Shown in pieces: positions 14,967 through 63,782 of a stretch of DNA of 64,000 nt. The notes under the pieces are model-generated. The model worked only from the letters and a program-made list of their open reading frames with translations, ran no database searches and was not told where the DNA came from. The first letter of the stretch is position 1; every line of letters begins with the position of its first letter. A program made the position numbers and the translations under genes. The DNA is from Planctomycetia bacterium (GTDB lineage: Bacteria; Planctomycetota; Planctomycetia; Gemmatales; Gemmataceae): assembly GCA_005808665.1 (NCBI GenBank), contig SYLG01000163.1, positions 1-64,000 of the forward strand, read 5' to 3'.

Positions 14967-16028
14967 TTAGGGAATGACTTCCAAACCGGGTTTTCCCCCT
15001 TCCAAAACCTCACCGATTACCGATTGGCAAATCGTCCCAGCCGTTTTCAATGCTTCCAAAAATCTGGGTGCGTCCGCCTTTGGCAAGGCAAACAGCAACC
15101 CCCCAGAGGTTTGGGGATCAAAAAGAATTTCCTTCCGAATCGGGTCCAATGGGTTAGCCAAAGTAAGGTACGATTGGGCATATTCCCGGATACTTTTGTT
15201 GGCACGGGTGAAAAATGAACTTTGGATCAAGCCTGCTACACCGCCAAGCAAAGGAAGGTCGCCCAATTTCAGCCGAATGCGTTGTCCGCTTCCCAGAGCC
15301 ATTTCCAATGCATGTCCGGAAAGGCCAAACCCGGTAACATCGGTGCAGGCATGTATGGCAAAGTTCATGGCAACAAGTGCCGCGGATTTATTAAGATTTG
15401 CCATACATTTTATGGCATCCACAAGGACGCTATCTGGACATTTGCGAGCCCTGTTAGAGGTGGTTATGAATCCCGTCCCAAGAGGCTTTGTCAAAACAAG
15501 CACATCTCCAGGCAGGGCACCAGCATTGGTCCAGATTTTTTGGGGATGAACAATTCCGGTAACAGATAAGCCGAATTTGATTTCCTGGTCGCGGATGGTG
15601 TGGCCTCCCACTACCGTACAACCGGCCTCATTGCACTTTTCCCCCGACCCTGCAAGAATAGGCCCAAGCCAGGTGAATTGAGGATCTTTATCGTCAGGGT
15701 AACCAAGCAAATTAAGGGCGGTTTTGGGGATACCCCCCATGGCATAAACATCGCTCAACGAATTAGCGGCGGCAATCTGACCATAAGCAAAGGGGTCATC
15801 CACAACGGGCGGAAAGAAATCCACAGTTTGTACAAGAGCAATATCCTCCGAAAGGCGATAGACTCCCGCATCATCGGAGGTATCCGTTCCCACGAGGAGA
15901 TTTGGGTCCCGGACGGAGGGCCTGGGAAGGTGGCGCAAAACTTGAGCAATTCCTTCCTGTGGGAGTTTTCCTGCTCAGCCGGCGCAGCTTGCATAATCAA
16001 TTAGGCGTTTTTTTCGGCCCCAGAGCAA
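14967..16028 (-). CDS. selD: Selenide, water dikinase, probable selenocysteine-containing form (UGA at 15975..15977)
   Basis: ORF 14967..15938 is SelD (NLLVGTDTSDDAGVYRL, SDVYAMGGIPKTALNLLG). Reading upstream through TGA gives LLWGRKKRLIDYASCAGUAGKLPQEGIAQVLRHLP, restoring the SelD catalytic-loop region; TTG start at 16028 with upstream GGGAG. Confidence 0.9.
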
Positions 16029-16122
16029 TGTTTACACTCCCAATGAAAAGGAACCCCAGTCCACTAACAAGGTCCACGGTCCATTCTATGAACCGGAATG
16101 TTGCCTCAAATGGAGACCCAAT

Positions 16123-55932: not shown

Positions 55933-56195
55933 GATCCAGACCCTCCCCCCCTATTTATGGCATGTTGGCAATGAAGAGGCGATGAGATTTTAAGAAAATA
56001 TTCGAGTCAATTCAATCATGTCGACGCCCTTGGGCAGATTGTGAAGGAAATATTCCAAAATCTTTCAAAAAATCCAATAATAAGGTCCCCACCGAAGCTT
56101 TAATTTGGTAGTATACTATTGAAGGGAGTCAGATTTTGGTATTATTTGCCGGATTAACCCCAAATTCTGTACCTTTCACGGTCGGAGAATCCCGC

Positions 56196-56975
56196 GTGTT
56201 GGTTGAAGAACGCCGTCAACGGGTTTTGGATTGGATCAGTTCCAAGGGATTCGCCTCTTTGGGGGACCTCTCCAAGGAATTGGGTGCATCCGAATCCACC
56301 CTTCGCCGTGATTTGGACCATTGGCACCATCAGGGTTTGGTCCGTCGAACACATGGTGGAGCTGTTTTTGTTGCCGATGCCACACCTCTCCCCACTTTAG
56401 AGGAACGATCCAGCCGTCAGCTGGAAGAAAAGAAATTGATTGCGAAGGCAGTTTCCAATCACATCCGGGATGGGGATACGGTGCTTCTGGATGGGGGGAC
56501 CACAACCCTGGAGGTCGCAAAACGGTTGGTAGGGCGACCCGTCCAGGTGGTTACCAACAGTATACCCATAGCACAACTCTATTCTGGGTGCAGGGATACA
56601 GACCTTGTGCTTTTGGGTGGTTATGTCTACCCAAGAACGGGGGTCGCCCTTGGCCCGCTCACGATTCGAATGCTGGAAGACCTTCATTTTCGACTGATGG
56701 TAATGGGTGTGGAAGGCATTACGGACAAAGGCCTTTTTAACGGCAACCTTCTTTTGGTGGAAACTGAAAGGGCAATGATGCGTCGTGCCGATGAATTGGT
56801 GGTGGTTGCGGACCATACCAAGATCGGGCGACCTGGCTTGGCGTGGCTTTGTGAGTTGCGAGATGTGGACACCCTTGTTGTGGATCCCGCAATCAAGCCA
56901 GACGCACGAAAAACCATTATCGAGGCAGGGGTTCGGCTCATTGTTTCAGGGGAACCCGGAGGATTTGGCGAATGA
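56196..56975 (+). CDS. DeoR/GlpR family transcriptional regulator
   Basis: RRQRVLDWISSKGFASLGDLSKELGASESTLRRDLDHWHHQGLVRRTHGGAVFV HTH; GTG start inside ORF 56136..56975. Confidence 0.93.
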   Translation: MLVEERRQRVLDWISSKGFASLGDLSKELGASESTLRRDLDHWHHQGLVRRTHGGAVFVADATPLPTLEERSSRQLEEKKLIAKAVSNHIRDGDTVLLDGGTTTLEVAKRLVGRPVQVVTNSIPIAQLYSGCRDTDLVLLGGYVYPRTGVALGPLTIRMLEDLHFRLMVMGVEGITDKGLFNGNLLLVETERAMMRRADELVVVADHTKIGRPGLAWLCELRDVDTLVVDPAIKPDARKTIIEAGVRLIVSGEPGGFGE

Positions 56976-57667
56976 GCATCCTGATGGCAAACCGGGGGTC
57001 CATTGATCGGGCCTTGGTTGAAAAAATGGTTAGGGATAGTCTCCTTCGAGGGATAAATCCTACTGCCCATCCTGCTTTGCTTGGCAAAAATTCCGCACCA
57101 AAGCTTGTGGTTAATGTTTCGGCCCGGCATGCTCATGTTACCCAAGCGGACCTCGAACTCCTTTTTGGAAAAGGACATCATTTAACCCCTTATAAAATGC
57201 TATACCAGGATGGTTATTTTGCTGCGGAAGAATCCCTTACTATTGTGGGCCCTCGCCAAAGGACAATTACCAACCTACGCATCCTTGGTCCTTGTCGGGA
57301 TCATAGCCAAGTCGAACTTGCTTTCACAGATGCCATAACCTTGGGTATTGATCCACCTGTCCGCAAAAGCGGAGACCATCGCAACTCTCCGGGCTGCTAC
57401 CTCATCGGTCCAAGGGGAATGATCCAGTTGGAAAAAGGCGTGATCCGTCATGAAAGGCATGTTCATTTGTGTGCAGAAGAAGCCGCCCACTTCGGAGTCA
57501 AGGATGGGGAAAGGTTAAACCTGCGCGTTAGGAGTGATTGCGCTGCGGTCTTGGAAGACCTTTTGGTTCGGGTGTCGAAAGGAGCCAAACTGGAGGCCCA
57601 CATCGACACGGACGAGGGCAACGCCTGTAACCTTGCCAAGGCGACCCACATGGAACTATTCCGTTGA
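56972..57667 (+). CDS. pduL: PduL-type phosphotransacylase (phosphate propanoyltransferase)
   Basis: VNVSARHAHVTQADLELLFGKGHHLT, RHVHLCAEEAAHFGVKDGE; EP-like N-terminal helix. Confidence 0.92.
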   Translation: MSILMANRGSIDRALVEKMVRDSLLRGINPTAHPALLGKNSAPKLVVNVSARHAHVTQADLELLFGKGHHLTPYKMLYQDGYFAAEESLTIVGPRQRTITNLRILGPCRDHSQVELAFTDAITLGIDPPVRKSGDHRNSPGCYLIGPRGMIQLEKGVIRHERHVHLCAEEAAHFGVKDGERLNLRVRSDCAAVLEDLLVRVSKGAKLEAHIDTDEGNACNLAKATHMELFR

Positions 57668-57778: not shown

Positions 57779-58069
57779 ATGGCGGGATCTTTGGAAGCCT
57801 TGGGAATGATTGAAACCCGAGGACTAACCGCGCTGGTGGAAGCCAGCGATGCGATGGTGAAAGCTGCCAATGTTCGGTTAATTGGTTGGCAAAAAATTGG
57901 CAGCGGCCTTGTTACCGCCATGGTGGTTGGTGATGTGGCTGCTGTAAAAGCGGCAGTGGACGCCGGTTCTGCGGCTGCAAGCCGGGTCGGTGAGGTTGTG
58001 GGCATCCAGGTGATTCCACGACCCCATGGCGACCTTCAAACAATCCTCCCCAAGGCCCCATCGGCCTAA
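57779..58069 (+). CDS. BMC-H shell protein
   Basis: [60 protein letters not shown]. Confidence 0.96.
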
Positions 58070-58104: not shown

Positions 58105-58386
58105 ATGTCAGTTAGGCCAGAAGCCTTGGGAATCGTTGAAACCAAGGGTTTGATTTCGGCGATTGCCGCCACCGATGCCATGTGCAAAGCAGCAAATGTC
58201 AGCTATGCCGGGCAAATCCAGATTGGCAACGCATTTGTTGCCACCTTTGTCCGGGGCGATGTCGGCAGCGTTCGCGCTGCGGTCGACGCCGGCGGCAAAG
58301 CAGCATCCGAACATGGTGAACTGGTAAGTGCCCATGTCATGCCGCGCCCGGACCCCTCCGTTGTGGCGGTTTTTTTGAACAACTAA
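58105..58386 (+). CDS. BMC-H shell protein
   Basis: RPEALGIVETKGLISAIAATDAMCKAANVSYAGQIQIGNAFVATFVRGDVGSVRAAVDAG. Confidence 0.96.
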   Translation: MSVRPEALGIVETKGLISAIAATDAMCKAANVSYAGQIQIGNAFVATFVRGDVGSVRAAVDAGGKAASEHGELVSAHVMPRPDPSVVAVFLNN

Positions 58387-58464: not shown

Positions 58465-59676
58465 ATGAAAATCCTTGTGGCAAACCTGGGAAGCACTAGC
58501 TTCAAATACAAGCTTTATGAGCTTGCCGATACACAGGGAGGTGCCAACCCCCAAGGCGAGCGAATGGTCGCAAAAGGTGGGGTTGAGCGGATTGGCTCGG
58601 ACAGCTCGAAGGCCTTCGTTGAAGCCAACGGCCGTCGTGAGGATATGGTTATTGAAGCCCGTGATCATGCCGCAGCGGTAAACCTTTGTCTTGGCCAACT
58701 AGCCAATCCTGCCTGGGGATGTTTGAAAACAACCTCCGAATTAGCCGCCATCGGTTTCAAAGCTGTTATGGCTCGTGGTATCAGCGGGGTGCGCCTGGTT
58801 AACGATCTGTTATTGCGTGCCATGGAGGATTGCAATGAAATTGCCCCGGCACATAACCCTCCTTATGTTGCGGCCATGCGCTTGCTAAGTCAAAAGCTCC
58901 CCGACATTCCTTTGGTTGCCGCTTTCGAAACCGGGTTTCACCAAACCATTCCGGACAGCCGAAAAATCTATGCAATCCCACTGGCATGGTCAGAAGCTTA
59001 TTGCGTCAAGCGTTGGGGTTTTCATGGAGCATCGCATCGATACATTGGCCAGCGTACCGCCGAAATATTGAATCGGCAGGACCTGAAAGTGATTTCATGC
59101 CATTTGGGTGGTTCGAGTTCGCTTTGTGCCATGATTGGGGGCAAATCCTTGGCGAACAGTCTGGGAATGAGTCCCCAGTCCGGGATTCCGCATAACAACA
59201 GAGTTGGGGATTTTGATCCTTTCGCCCTCCCCTTGATTATGAGGGGAACCGGAAAAACCCTTGAACAGGTTTTGGCCGATTTGGCCACTAGGTCTGGCCT
59301 TGAGGGGATTTCCGGCCATAACGACCTTCGTGACATCGAAATGGCATCCGCCAAGGGTGAGCCCAGGGCAAAACTGGCATTGGATATCTTTATCGAGGCT
59401 GTTCGGCATTACCTTGGATCCTACCTGGTTGCCCTGGGAGGAGCCGATGTCATCGTCTTCACTGGGGGTATTGGCGAAAATTCAACCCTGGTGCGCGAAG
59501 CCATTTGTTCAAACCTTGGATTCCTTGGAATTTCCGTGGATGCCAAGGCCAACCTTGGGGCCAAAGGTGAAGCTGCGTTTCACGCCCAGGATAGCAAGGT
59601 AGAGCTTTGGACCATGCCCACCAATGAAGAATTAATGGTTGCCAGACAAACAAGAGACCTATTGCTGGCAAACTAG
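58465..59676 (+). CDS. ackA: Acetate/propionate kinase
   Basis: ILVANLGSTSFKYKLYEL, AFETGFHQTIP, FHGASHRYIGQRTAEIL, VFTGGIGENSTLVR. Confidence 0.95.
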   Translation: MKILVANLGSTSFKYKLYELADTQGGANPQGERMVAKGGVERIGSDSSKAFVEANGRREDMVIEARDHAAAVNLCLGQLANPAWGCLKTTSELAAIGFKAVMARGISGVRLVNDLLLRAMEDCNEIAPAHNPPYVAAMRLLSQKLPDIPLVAAFETGFHQTIPDSRKIYAIPLAWSEAYCVKRWGFHGASHRYIGQRTAEILNRQDLKVISCHLGGSSSLCAMIGGKSLANSLGMSPQSGIPHNNRVGDFDPFALPLIMRGTGKTLEQVLADLATRSGLEGISGHNDLRDIEMASAKGEPRAKLALDIFIEAVRHYLGSYLVALGGADVIVFTGGIGENSTLVREAICSNLGFLGISVDAKANLGAKGEAAFHAQDSKVELWTMPTNEELMVARQTRDLLLAN

Positions 59677-59726
59677 GGAATCCGGATGGCGGAAACCACC
59701 CGGGGTTTATGAAAAGGAGATTTCAA

Positions 59727-59960
59727 ATGAAAGTGGATATTACCTACTGCACCTCCTGAGGATACAGGCAATTTGCCACCAGTTTGGTGGCAGCGATCCG
59801 GAAGGCCCATGGCACGGTTGTTTCTACAGAAACACATATGGGTTCAGGCGGTGTATTTGATGTTCAGATTGATGGGGAAAAAGTGTTTAGCAAATTTGAT
59901 GCTGGACGATTCCCAACCAATAGCGAGATTCTGGCTTTTATAGACGCCAAGGGCAAGTAA
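59727..59960 (+). CDS. Rdx/SelW-like family protein, candidate selenoprotein with UGA at 59757..59759
   Basis: Not in the ORF track. ATG with AAGGAGA SD; translation MKVDITYCTSUGYRQFATSLVAAIRKAHGTVVSTETHMGSGGVFDVQIDGEKVFSKFDAGRFPTNSEILAFIDAKGK: N-terminal CxxU plus the Rdx-like tail GSGGVFDVQIDGEKVFSKFDAGRFP. Confidence 0.88.
59774..59792 (+). promoter_or_regulatory. Candidate bacterial SECIS hairpin for the SelW-like gene
   Basis: TGCCACC-AGTTT-GGTGGCA: perfect 7-bp stem, GU-containing loop, beginning 15 nt after the UGA. Confidence 0.75.
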
Positions 59961-59990: not shown

Positions 59991-60311
59991 ATGTTTCTGG
60001 CACGAGTGACCGGAGTTGTGGTATCCACCCAAAAAGCGGTAGCCATGAAGGGGCATAAGCTCCTCCTCGTGGAACCGCTCCGGGTGGATCCGAATTTGCG
60101 TGACAGGCTTATTGGCACAGGCCGAAGCCTTATTGCCGTGGATCCATTAGGTGCCGGGGCAGGTCAGGTGATCCTGATGGTACAGGGATCAAGTGCCAGG
60201 CTAATGCCGGAAACAGACAAATTGCCTATCGATGCCGCCGTGATCGGTTTGGTGGATGAGGTTCGGGTGGGCGACACGATCATCAAAATGGATGATAGCC
60301 AACCGTCTTAA
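59991..60311 (+). CDS. BMC-P (EutN/CcmL) vertex protein
   Basis: MFLARVTGVVVSTQKAVAMKGHKLLLVEPL...VDPLGAGAGQVILMVQGSSAR. Confidence 0.95.
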   Translation: MFLARVTGVVVSTQKAVAMKGHKLLLVEPLRVDPNLRDRLIGTGRSLIAVDPLGAGAGQVILMVQGSSARLMPETDKLPIDAAVIGLVDEVRVGDTIIKMDDSQPS

Positions 60312-60342: not shown

Positions 60343-61782
60343 ATGGCGATGACAGTCAAATTTAGCGATGATGTGATCCGGGGTGTGATCCATCAGGTGT
60401 TAACCGAACTCCGTGGTCCGGGAGTTTCAATTCCCCCAATGACCCAGCAAGGGGCCTCTTCCGGCGATGGTGTGTTTCCCACGATTGACCAAGCTGCCAA
60501 CGCAGCCGCATTAGCCCAAAAAGAATTCAATCGTAGGGGAATCGAAGACCGTGCCTTGGCTATTGCCCGTATCCGGAAAATATGCACCGATCAGGCTGAA
60601 ACTCTTGGTCGGGAAGAGTTCGAGGAAACCAAAATCGGCCGCCTTGTTCACAAAATTGAAAAACTACGGATTGTTGCGGATCGAATCCCGGGAACCGAGT
60701 TTTTACGAACGGATGCCTTTTCGGGAGGCAATGGCGTTTCACTACAGGAATATGCACCCTTTGGCGTCATTGGGGCCATCACACCGGTAACCCATTCTCT
60801 CCCTACCTTGGCTTGCAACGCTATCAATATGCTCGCCTCCGGTAATGCCGTGGTTTTTAATGCTCATCCTTCCGGCGCAAATATAGCGAACAAAGGCGTT
60901 CGCCTTTTTAACCGTGCAATTCGTGAAGCCATTGGAATCGACAACCTGCTAACAATTGTCGAAACCCCTACCCTTGAAACCGCTCAGCAACTTTTCGATC
61001 ACCGGGAAGTGAAATTGATTTGTGTTACCGGAGGGCCTGCGGTTGCAAGAGCTGCCCTTCGTAGTCCAAAAAGGGCAATTGTTGCCGGCCCTGGTAACCC
61101 ACCCGTCGTGGTTGATGAAACCGCCGATATCAAAAATGCAGCGCTTTCAATTATTGCCGGGGCTTCCTATGACAACAACCTCCTGTGCATCGGTGAAAAG
61201 GAAGTTTTTGCGGTCGCTTCAATAATGGATGAACTCCTCAATGAAATGGCAAACGCCGGGGCGATTCGGCTGGATCGGTCCCAAACCGAGGCACTTACCC
61301 GAGTCGCCTTCATGGTAGGAGAAGGTGGAAAAACCATTCTGAACAAGGAATTGATCGGCAAGGACCCTGCTGTGTTGGCAAGGGCCGCGGGATTCCAGGT
61401 ACCCGATAAAACCGAGCTTCTTTTCGCCGAAACGGGTACGGATAATCCCTTCGTCGATCATGAACAAATGATGCCCTTTGTTCCCTTTGTTCGAACCAGG
61501 GATGTCCATGAAGCCATTGCTTTTGCAAAAAAATTCGAACATGGTTACCGCCACACTGCGGTCATCCACAGTCGCAATATCGACACCATAACCCGAATGG
61601 GACGGGAAATGGATACCACCCTTTTTATTCAAAATGGGGCCAGCTTGGCCGGTTTGGGTTCTGGGGGTGAAGGCTACTTGAGCTTCTCCATCGCCACCCC
61701 AACCGGCGAAGGGGTTACAACGCCCCTTACCTTTACCAGGCAAAGGCGCTCCACCACGGTAAAAGCGTTGCGAGTCCTATAG
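60343..61782 (+). CDS. CoA-acylating aldehyde dehydrogenase (EutE/PduP-like), BMC-associated
   Basis: EYAPFGVIGAITPVTHSLPTLACNAINMLASGNAVVFNAHPS, SYDNNLLCIGEKEV; N-terminal helix DDVIRGVIHQVLTEL resembles an encapsulation peptide. Confidence 0.94.
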   Translation: MAMTVKFSDDVIRGVIHQVLTELRGPGVSIPPMTQQGASSGDGVFPTIDQAANAAALAQKEFNRRGIEDRALAIARIRKICTDQAETLGREEFEETKIGRLVHKIEKLRIVADRIPGTEFLRTDAFSGGNGVSLQEYAPFGVIGAITPVTHSLPTLACNAINMLASGNAVVFNAHPSGANIANKGVRLFNRAIREAIGIDNLLTIVETPTLETAQQLFDHREVKLICVTGGPAVARAALRSPKRAIVAGPGNPPVVVDETADIKNAALSIIAGASYDNNLLCIGEKEVFAVASIMDELLNEMANAGAIRLDRSQTEALTRVAFMVGEGGKTILNKELIGKDPAVLARAAGFQVPDKTELLFAETGTDNPFVDHEQMMPFVPFVRTRDVHEAIAFAKKFEHGYRHTAVIHSRNIDTITRMGREMDTTLFIQNGASLAGLGSGGEGYLSFSIATPTGEGVTTPLTFTRQRRSTTVKALRVL

Positions 61783-61838
61783 GACATTTCCTTTTTAATG
61801 AGTGGTTGTTGGGAAGATATAAGGGGGTTGGCAGGGCA

Positions 61839-62105
61839 GTGCAAATTGGGCGGGTGGAAGGATTGGCAACCTCAACCGTGAAGCATAAAAGTTTCACAGG
61901 AATGCGGCTACTAGTCGTACAACCCCTTGATATTATTGGCAAGGAGGAGGGTGAACCTCTATTGGTTATTGATCAATTGGGGGCATCCCGTGGGGATCGA
62001 GTCATTCTCTCTAGCGACGGCGCTGCGGCCAGAAAAATGGTGGGCGACAGGAGCTCCCCCGTTCGATGGATGGTAATGGGGCTTTGCGATCTGGGAGGGG
62101 TTTAA
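61839..62105 (+). CDS. BMC-P (EutN/CcmL) vertex protein
   Basis: QIGRVEGLATSTVKHKSFTGMRLLVVQPLD...VIDQLGASRGDRVILSSDGAAAR; GTG start with upstream AAGGGGG. Confidence 0.92.
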   Translation: MQIGRVEGLATSTVKHKSFTGMRLLVVQPLDIIGKEEGEPLLVIDQLGASRGDRVILSSDGAAARKMVGDRSSPVRWMVMGLCDLGGV

Positions 62106-62560
62106 TGCCATCTCTTATGCCAAAGGTACCCGATTCCATGCCCTGTTCCCTGGTTTTAGCCCGCAATGGTACTACCGACCAGAGGGAGATTCTCGAAGCG
62201 GCACGACTTTCATGGAGGAAGCGAGGCATCCCGGTCGAGGAAATCAAGGCAGAACCTTCGGCCGTGATTTCCTTGGCGGCGGAACTTGCCTCCGCAGGCT
62301 TGGTTTGGTGCATCCTGAGGTTGACCGATCATCCGGAATGGGAAACGGCAAGTTTCAACCGGTTGGATGGGGTGAGGGCAGCCCAAGTGTTCAGGGTGGA
62401 GGGCATGACTCGGGCTTTAAGGACACTAAAACCCCAAGTTTTGGTAACCGAAGGTCGAAGCGCCACGATCTATGAAATTATTCGGTTTGGGGCTGACCTT
62501 TGGCAGGCCAACCGCCAGGGATTATTAGCAAAAACCCCGATTGGGAGTACGGCAAATTGA
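62105..62560 (+). CDS. Conserved-looking hypothetical protein within BMC operon
   Basis: ATG overlaps the upstream stop (TAATG); 151-aa ORF, family not recognised. Confidence 0.8.
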   Translation: MPSLMPKVPDSMPCSLVLARNGTTDQREILEAARLSWRKRGIPVEEIKAEPSAVISLAAELASAGLVWCILRLTDHPEWETASFNRLDGVRAAQVFRVEGMTRALRTLKPQVLVTEGRSATIYEIIRFGADLWQANRQGLLAKTPIGSTAN

Positions 62561-62562
62561 GA

Positions 62563-62859
62563 ATGGGTTCCGTGGTGGGAAATGTAACACTCAAAAGGGT
62601 TCACCCGATTTTGACCGGGGCCCGTTGGATACTTGTTTCCCCTATGTCACTAAATGCCTTGAAATCATCCTTGGCTTGCGGAGAACCAGCGGGGGATGGT
62701 GAGGAAATCGTGGTTTACGACGATTTGGGTGTAGGAGTTGGGCAGTTGATCGCATTTAGCGAAGGTGGAGAGGCGGCAGCACCGTTTATCCCTGAAAAAG
62801 TGCCTGTTGACGCCTTTTGTGGGCTTTTATTGGACAAAGTGGTTTTAGAGGATAGATAA
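62563..62859 (+). CDS. BMC-P (EutN/CcmL) vertex protein
   Basis: MGSVVGNVTLKRVHPILTGARWILVSPM...VVYDDLGVGVGQLIAFSEGGEAAAPF. Confidence 0.9.
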   Translation: MGSVVGNVTLKRVHPILTGARWILVSPMSLNALKSSLACGEPAGDGEEIVVYDDLGVGVGQLIAFSEGGEAAAPFIPEKVPVDAFCGLLLDKVVLEDR

Positions 62860-63782
62860 TGAGCCAGAATGAACAAAACCTTAAAGAATTCATGTGCGAA
62901 ATCGGTCGAAGATTGTACGATCGGCAATTTGCCGCCGCAAACGATGGCAACATAACCGTTCGACTCAATGACCGGGAATTCTTGTGTACACCCACCATGG
63001 TATCAAAAGGGTTCATGACCCCCGATGACATCTGCAAGATTGATATCAATGGCACCCAGATCGCCGGCCAACGCAAACGATCCTCGGAAGTTTTGCTACA
63101 CCTCTCGGTTTACAAGGAACGGCCAGATGTAAATGCGGTCGTTCACTGCCATCCACCTCATGCGACAGCTTTTGCCGTCGCCCACGAGCCAATCCCCAAG
63201 TGCGTCCTTCCTGAAGTGGAAGTATTTTTGGGAGAAGTGCCCATTGCGGTTTATGAAACCCCAGGGGGGCAAAAGTTTGCCGACACCATCTCTCCCTATG
63301 TCAAAAGTTGCAATACCATTTTGCTTGCAAACCATGGGACAATCACATTTGGTCCCAATTTGGAAAATGCCTATTTCAACACGGAAATCATCGATGCCTA
63401 TTGTCGCATACTAATCCTGTCCCGGCAACTGGGACGGGTCAATTATTTTAGCGACCAGCAAACAAAAGAGCTTTTGGATCTCAAAAAGCGCCTTGGATAC
63501 GATGATGTTCGGTTCCAAAAAACCAACCCTCCCATGTGTGGGGAAAGCTCCTTCGACAATGAATACTCACCCTTTATACCCCGACCATTTGCTTTTCGAA
63601 GGGAAATGGAACCAGCAGGAGTGGGTGAATGCCAATGCAAAGCACCTGCCCAAGGGTCAACTTGTGGAGGTGTCACCCGGGTTTCCCCCGAAAATCCACC
63701 GCCTTATCTCCGGTCCGATACAGATTTGGAAAAATTGGTTCAAACCATCACCAACCAGGTGATGGGGGCCCTGGGGGGTTAA
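62859..63782 (+). CDS. Class II aldolase (L-fuculose/L-rhamnulose-phosphate aldolase-like), BMC cargo
   Basis: AANDGNITVRLND, HCHPPHATAFAVAHEP, LANHGTITFG; C-terminal extension ending TDLEKLVQTITNQVMGALGG resembles an encapsulation peptide. Confidence 0.93.
   Translation: MSQNEQNLKEFMCEIGRRLYDRQFAAANDGNITVRLNDREFLCTPTMVSKGFMTPDDICKIDINGTQIAGQRKRSSEVLLHLSVYKERPDVNAVVHCHPPHATAFAVAHEPIPKCVLPEVEVFLGEVPIAVYETPGGQKFADTISPYVKSCNTILLANHGTITFGPNLENAYFNTEIIDAYCRILILSRQLGRVNYFSDQQTKELLDLKKRLGYDDVRFQKTNPPMCGESSFDNEYSPFIPRPFAFRREMEPAGVGECQCKAPAQGSTCGGVTRVSPENPPPYLRSDTDLEKLVQTITNQVMGALGG

Follow-up and report, generated by a model that had tools for sequence, protein, structure and literature searches.

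A small selenoprotein of the SelW/Rdx family is encoded in the middle of a sugar-microcompartment operon of the PVM type in the window, the whole 64,000-nt stretch of planctomycete DNA that was analysed here, and we give an even chance to the complete reading, in which this protein keeps the thiols of the PVM pathway reduced. The genome to which the window belongs (G000) is 100% complete, and what is said below about whole genomes rests on profile searches.

The selW-like gene and its operon

The gene lies on the plus strand, from an ATG at 59727 to a TAA ending at 59960, and is interrupted at codon 11 by an in-frame UGA (59757-59759). With this codon read as selenocysteine, the product is a protein of 77 residues, MKVDITYCTSUGYRQFATSLVAAIRKAHGTVVSTETHMGSGGVFDVQIDGEKVFSKFDAGRFPTNSEILAFIDAKGK, whose active site C8-T-S-U11 is a CxxU motif. 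The start codon is preceded by a Shine-Dalgarno sequence AAGGAGA (59714-59720), with similar sites in orthologous loci, and the gene is separated by 50 nt from the end of ackA (59676) and by 30 nt from the start of a BMC-P gene (59991). On re-reading of the sequence, the coordinates, the UGA codon, the Shine-Dalgarno site and the two spacings are as an earlier note on this DNA gave them; its remark that a standard ORF track misses the gene also holds, the gene being absent from the standard-code ORF list of the window.

The surrounding operon is co-directional. It begins with a DeoR-family regulator (56136-56975, Pfam), the first gene of the PVM locus, followed by a PduL-type phosphate acyltransferase (56972-57667, Pfam and NCBIfam), two BMC-H shell proteins (57779-58069 and 58105-58386, both Pfam) and the acetate/propionate kinase AckA (58465-59676, Pfam and NCBIfam), which is the upstream neighbour of SelW. 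Downstream of SelW come a BMC-P (EutN/CcmL) shell protein (59991-60311, Pfam), a CoA-acylating aldehyde dehydrogenase (ALDH; 60346-61782, Pfam and NCBIfam), a second BMC-P protein (61806-62105, Pfam), a third BMC-P-like protein (62500-62859, assigned from position and homology rather than a Pfam scan), the class II aldolase that is the signature enzyme of PVM loci (62859-63782), here with a C-terminal linker that lacks the usual CxxC, and finally a lactate/malate-type dehydrogenase, a label that comes from reading the sequence and not from a family scan. BMC-H, BMC-P, class II aldolase, acylating ALDH, PduL, ackA and DeoR genes are thus all present, as in a PVM locus. The published description of such loci lists the class II aldolase, the DeoR regulator, acetate kinase and the lactate/malate dehydrogenase, makes no mention of SelW, and assigns the compartments to the degradation of L-fucose and L-rhamnose through lactaldehyde (PMC4207490). 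Two further genes of the area can be mentioned: a conserved gene, coding for about 415 aa, that follows the dehydrogenase (L035:9552-10799 and homologues) and travels with many PVM loci of the class, and a 164-aa ORF (62066-62560, plus strand) between two BMC-P genes, which overlaps the ends of its neighbours, is conserved in the genus of the window (g1) and has no Pfam match.

The product almost certainly belongs to the SelW/Rdx family, as the earlier note had proposed. In profile searches with the joined translation, for which position 11 was set to Cys, it matches Pfam Rdx PF10262 with E=5.1e-17 (62.3 bits, cut-off 22.6) and NCBIfam TIGR02174 with 5.5e-17 (61.8 bits, cut-off 34.2); its score of 69.9 falls short of the 88 needed for the narrower equivalog NF041051. 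Among PDB entries, human MIEN1 (2LJK, 1.6e-14) is its top profile hit, with bacterial SelW-like proteins next. The AlphaFold2 model is of high confidence (mean pLDDT 95.1) and has the SelW-type thioredoxin-like fold, being matched by Foldseek to the bacterial SelW structures 2OBK, 2FA8, 2OJL and others with TM up to 0.93. The C8-T-S-U11 motif follows the first strand in all 14 aligned rows.

Selenocysteine decoding

The genome contains the complete set of selA, selB, selC and selD, as expected of a bacterium that makes selenoproteins. The tRNA-Sec gene (selC) is found on the same contig, 3 kb past the end of the window (C155:67074-67167; L035:11071-11168, minus strand), 275 nt downstream of the last gene of the PVM operon and on the opposite strand, while selA and selB adjoin each other on contig C22. 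In the same genus tRNA-Sec is also near the PVM locus in G069 (L036:664-761), and on another contig in G070. The selenophosphate synthetase gene selD lies in the window itself (14967-16031 as stop-to-stop extent, minus strand) and has its own in-frame UGA at 15975-15977. Its product carries SCAGUAGK and so is Sec-containing, which makes it a second UGA-interrupted gene in the window that is truncated by standard ORF calling. A formate-dehydrogenase-like alpha subunit, whose gene has a single in-frame UGA (C35:6301-8172, minus strand), is a third candidate selenoprotein of the genome and is shared with G058, G069 and G070. Global recoding of UGA was considered and rejected, since two genes of this operon, deoR and pduL, have UGA as their ordinary stop codon.

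Shortly after the UGA the mRNA would form a SECIS-like hairpin (59775-59791, plus strand), starting 15 nt downstream of this codon, with the stem GCCACC/GGTGGC, the loop AGTTT and a G close to where the apical loop begins. Folded by itself, the window sequence of this region has an unremarkable local fold energy (z -0.23), and for this reason we turned to covariation. The 6-bp stem occurs at the same register in 34 different SelW sequences, both BMC-linked and not, with loops AGTTT, AGTCT or GGTCT. Of all cells, 92.2% are paired, a share that drops to 13-57% if the partner strand is shifted by 1-3 columns, and in 23 cells both partners have changed, where shuffles give 6.9 on average. Since the region is coding, codon usage adds to the conservation of the hairpin, with no obvious contribution to compensatory change.

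Cysteine takes the place of the UGA in homologues from Obscuribacterales (ITYCTSCGYR). The earlier note would have given up the selenoprotein reading if there were no homologue with Cys at this position or no sel genes in the genome; such homologues exist, and selA, selB, selD and tRNA-Sec are all there. It is therefore only very remotely conceivable that translation stops at the UGA and the frame is a pseudogene in decay, or that it is recoded by another route. Ordinary gene finding does end at codon 10, but the UGA is kept in 15 of 15 loci under dN/dS of 0.05-0.19, the Sec machinery is complete, the pairs of the hairpin covary, homologues with Cys are known, and neighbouring genes use UGA as a normal stop. 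Judged from the sequence, the gene is that of a genuine selenoprotein, the UGA falling on the second of the active-site positions in CxxU.

Conservation and origin

A close homologue is found in 15 genomes from five genera of the order, the window genome and 14 others at 53-88% identity, and the UGA is present in every one of these BMC-linked genes. The location inside the microcompartment operon, which the earlier note had seen in this one sequence, is conserved throughout: SelW stands directly before BMC-P in 15/15 and after ackA in 14/15, that is, wherever the contig reaches. Eight pairwise comparisons of BMC SelW give dN/dS values of 0.05-0.19, indicating purifying selection, and these values, together with the E-values of the Pfam and TIGR02174 matches and the recurrence of the same UGA frame in 15 genomes, exclude a chance frame.

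The gap between ackA and BMC-P is 257-341 nt in the 14 Rdx-containing loci where it was measured. No Rdx gene was found between the two in 64 other planctomycete PVM loci that have both genes on the contig, and in 58 of these the gap is 113 nt or less, which is too short for a SelW gene. Poor sensitivity is an unlikely cause, since the same profile finds divergent non-BMC SelW proteins at 38-59 bits. In a tree of PVM proteins the Rdx-containing loci form one clade (SH-aLRT 96) and call for one change. Since the slot is the same in all 15 genomes of the clade and empty in the 64 other loci, the sequences indicate that the gene was inserted once and then retained in every sampled locus of the clade. 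Two genomes of genus g36 (G081 and G083) have neither the PVM dehydrogenase nor the BMC SelW, a co-loss. A motif scan over ~85,000 GTDB species returned only 13 planctomycete loci, among them one of Gemmataceae bacterium Baikal-deep-G173, and four of Obscuribacterales-type Cyanobacteriota.

The nearest relatives found outside Planctomycetota are the Cys-form Rdx proteins of Obscuribacterales (L080-L083), at 39-44% identity, while the usual non-BMC SelW of the lineage, which has UGA in all but a few copies, is ~30% identical to BMC SelW. In 10 of the 24 loci of the order that were examined (L016, L017, L023, L024, L029, L194-L197 and L199), this usual SelW adjoins selD. In the SelW tree (midpoint root, 77 columns) the BMC SelW forms its own clade (98/92), apart from other planctomycete SelW, and groups with the Obscuribacterales Cys forms (99/97). 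An origin by duplication of the resident SelW is thus disfavoured by the tree, though 77 columns resolve little, and the gene may have been acquired horizontally from a distant source. In genus g1 no Rdx protein was found besides the BMC SelW; the other 12 genomes with BMC SelW also keep a second, non-BMC SelW.

Proposed function

Rdx proteins are regarded as thiol oxidoreductases of which the exact functions are unknown (PMC10650576). We tentatively propose thiol/selenol redox maintenance of the PVM cargo, a role to which, reasoning from sequence, we would give slightly less than an even chance. SelW would be a small selenol/thiol oxidoreductase holding thiols of the PVM pathway reduced, with the catalytic cysteine of the acylating ALDH, cysteines in PduL and the aldolase, and perhaps CoA as its clients. 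Virtually all loci retain a Cys near position 282 of the ALDH; it is probably the catalytic one and would then be a natural client. The overall Cys content of the PVM cargo enzymes is not raised in Rdx-containing loci relative to the others. For redox change of a BMC lumen, carboxysomes appear to offer a precedent, at least in one account (PMC12935002).

SelW would draw its electrons from thioredoxin/thioredoxin reductase and not from glutathione. A thioredoxin reductase homologue is present in the genome, and the profile search of the genome gave no strong match to glutathione synthetase: domain matches are at 40-48 bits, and the domain profile also matches archaeal control genomes. We take these matches to be RimK-type paralogues. 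With a reductase present and a glutathione synthetase not convincing, thioredoxin is the likelier electron source.

Where would SelW act? Inspection of the sequence and the model by eye revealed no terminal encapsulation peptide, with nothing beyond the Rdx domain in the 77 residues; a helical N-terminal segment of the ALDH appears to resemble such a peptide. Since SelW lacks an extension of this kind, a location in the lumen is unsupported, and action in the cytosol during assembly, or on cargo accessible from the shell, would be likelier than a role as tethered cargo. The same lack fits an explanation that we hold possible, if less than probable, namely that SelW is a general cytosolic antioxidant with no specific BMC client, placed in the PVM operon only for induction under the oxidative or aldehyde stress of sugar catabolism. 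As the sole Rdx found in genus g1 it may also do the housekeeping job of SelW there. However, all 12 of the other BMC-SelW genomes keep a non-BMC SelW as well, and the g36 genomes without the PVM dehydrogenase are also without the BMC paralogue; the retention of a second SelW and this co-loss argue that the BMC SelW is specialised and not redundant.

The aldolase raises a further point. The comparison of the window enzyme (62859-63782) with the PVM aldolases of L084-L121 and L160-L190 showed that a CxxC between the aldolase domain and the C-terminal peptide is present in 36/36 outgroup loci and 24/26 Rdx-free loci of the same order, but in 0/14 Rdx-containing loci. Genera g1, g26 and g35 lack the first Cys, g27 and g36 the second, a difference that suggests that the motif was lost twice once SelW had been inserted. 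A phylogenetic test of CxxC loss against Rdx has one independent pair, so that with a single origin of Rdx the association is not statistically claimable. The motif could be seen as a redox or metal switch of the aldolase that SelW replaced or now regulates, the CxxC no longer being needed after the operon had gained a CxxU protein. We find this improbable: the CxxC is present in 60 of 62 Rdx-free loci and broken in 14 of 14 with Rdx, yet two Rdx-free relatives (L162 and L163) have also lost it, Rdx has one origin only, and the aldolase model, with a pLDDT of 54, is too poor to place the motif. The most far-reaching version, in which SelW specifically controls PVM thiol redox (ALDH, aldolase and CoA), has taken the place of the CxxC in the aldolase and defines a PVM metabolosome subtype that depends on selenium, seems to us unlikely.

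Comparison with known systems

The placement of SelW in the PVM operon suggests that the organelle acquired a dedicated redox helper. SelW is widespread, and a SelW fixed in an operon gives a short list of candidate physiological partners. If true, the proposal would tie sugar catabolism in an organelle to the supply of selenium and give the PVM parts list a redox component. It would also show that within well-surveyed BMC loci there is a class of genes invisible to ordinary annotation. The main texts of two BMC surveys (PMC4207490, PMC8217296) mention neither selenium nor Rdx, and we found no selenoprotein in a BMC locus in the open-licence literature, while an earlier mention elsewhere is possible.

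With bacterial SelW-like proteins (PF10262/TIGR02174) the window protein shares the fold, the length, the CxxU motif, a GGxF before the third strand and the UGA with a nearby hairpin; unlike other bacterial SelW-like selenoproteins, it is encoded inside a microcompartment operon and forms its own clade. Human MIEN1/C17orf37 (2LJK) and mouse SelW (2NPB) have the same fold, but are eukaryotic and come from an unrelated context. The Cys-form Rdx of Obscuribacterales resembles it in the active-site region noted above but has Cys for Sec and no PVM genes nearby. The operon itself has the gene set of the PVM locus (LoClass cluster 4.1) in its usual order: DeoR, PduL, two BMC-H, AckA, BMC-P, ALDH, two further BMC-P, aldolase and dehydrogenase. 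It differs from described PVM loci in having a Sec-containing SelW between ackA and BMC-P and in lacking CxxC from the aldolase linker. What is new here is not the protein family, which is known, but its constant position in a BMC operon.
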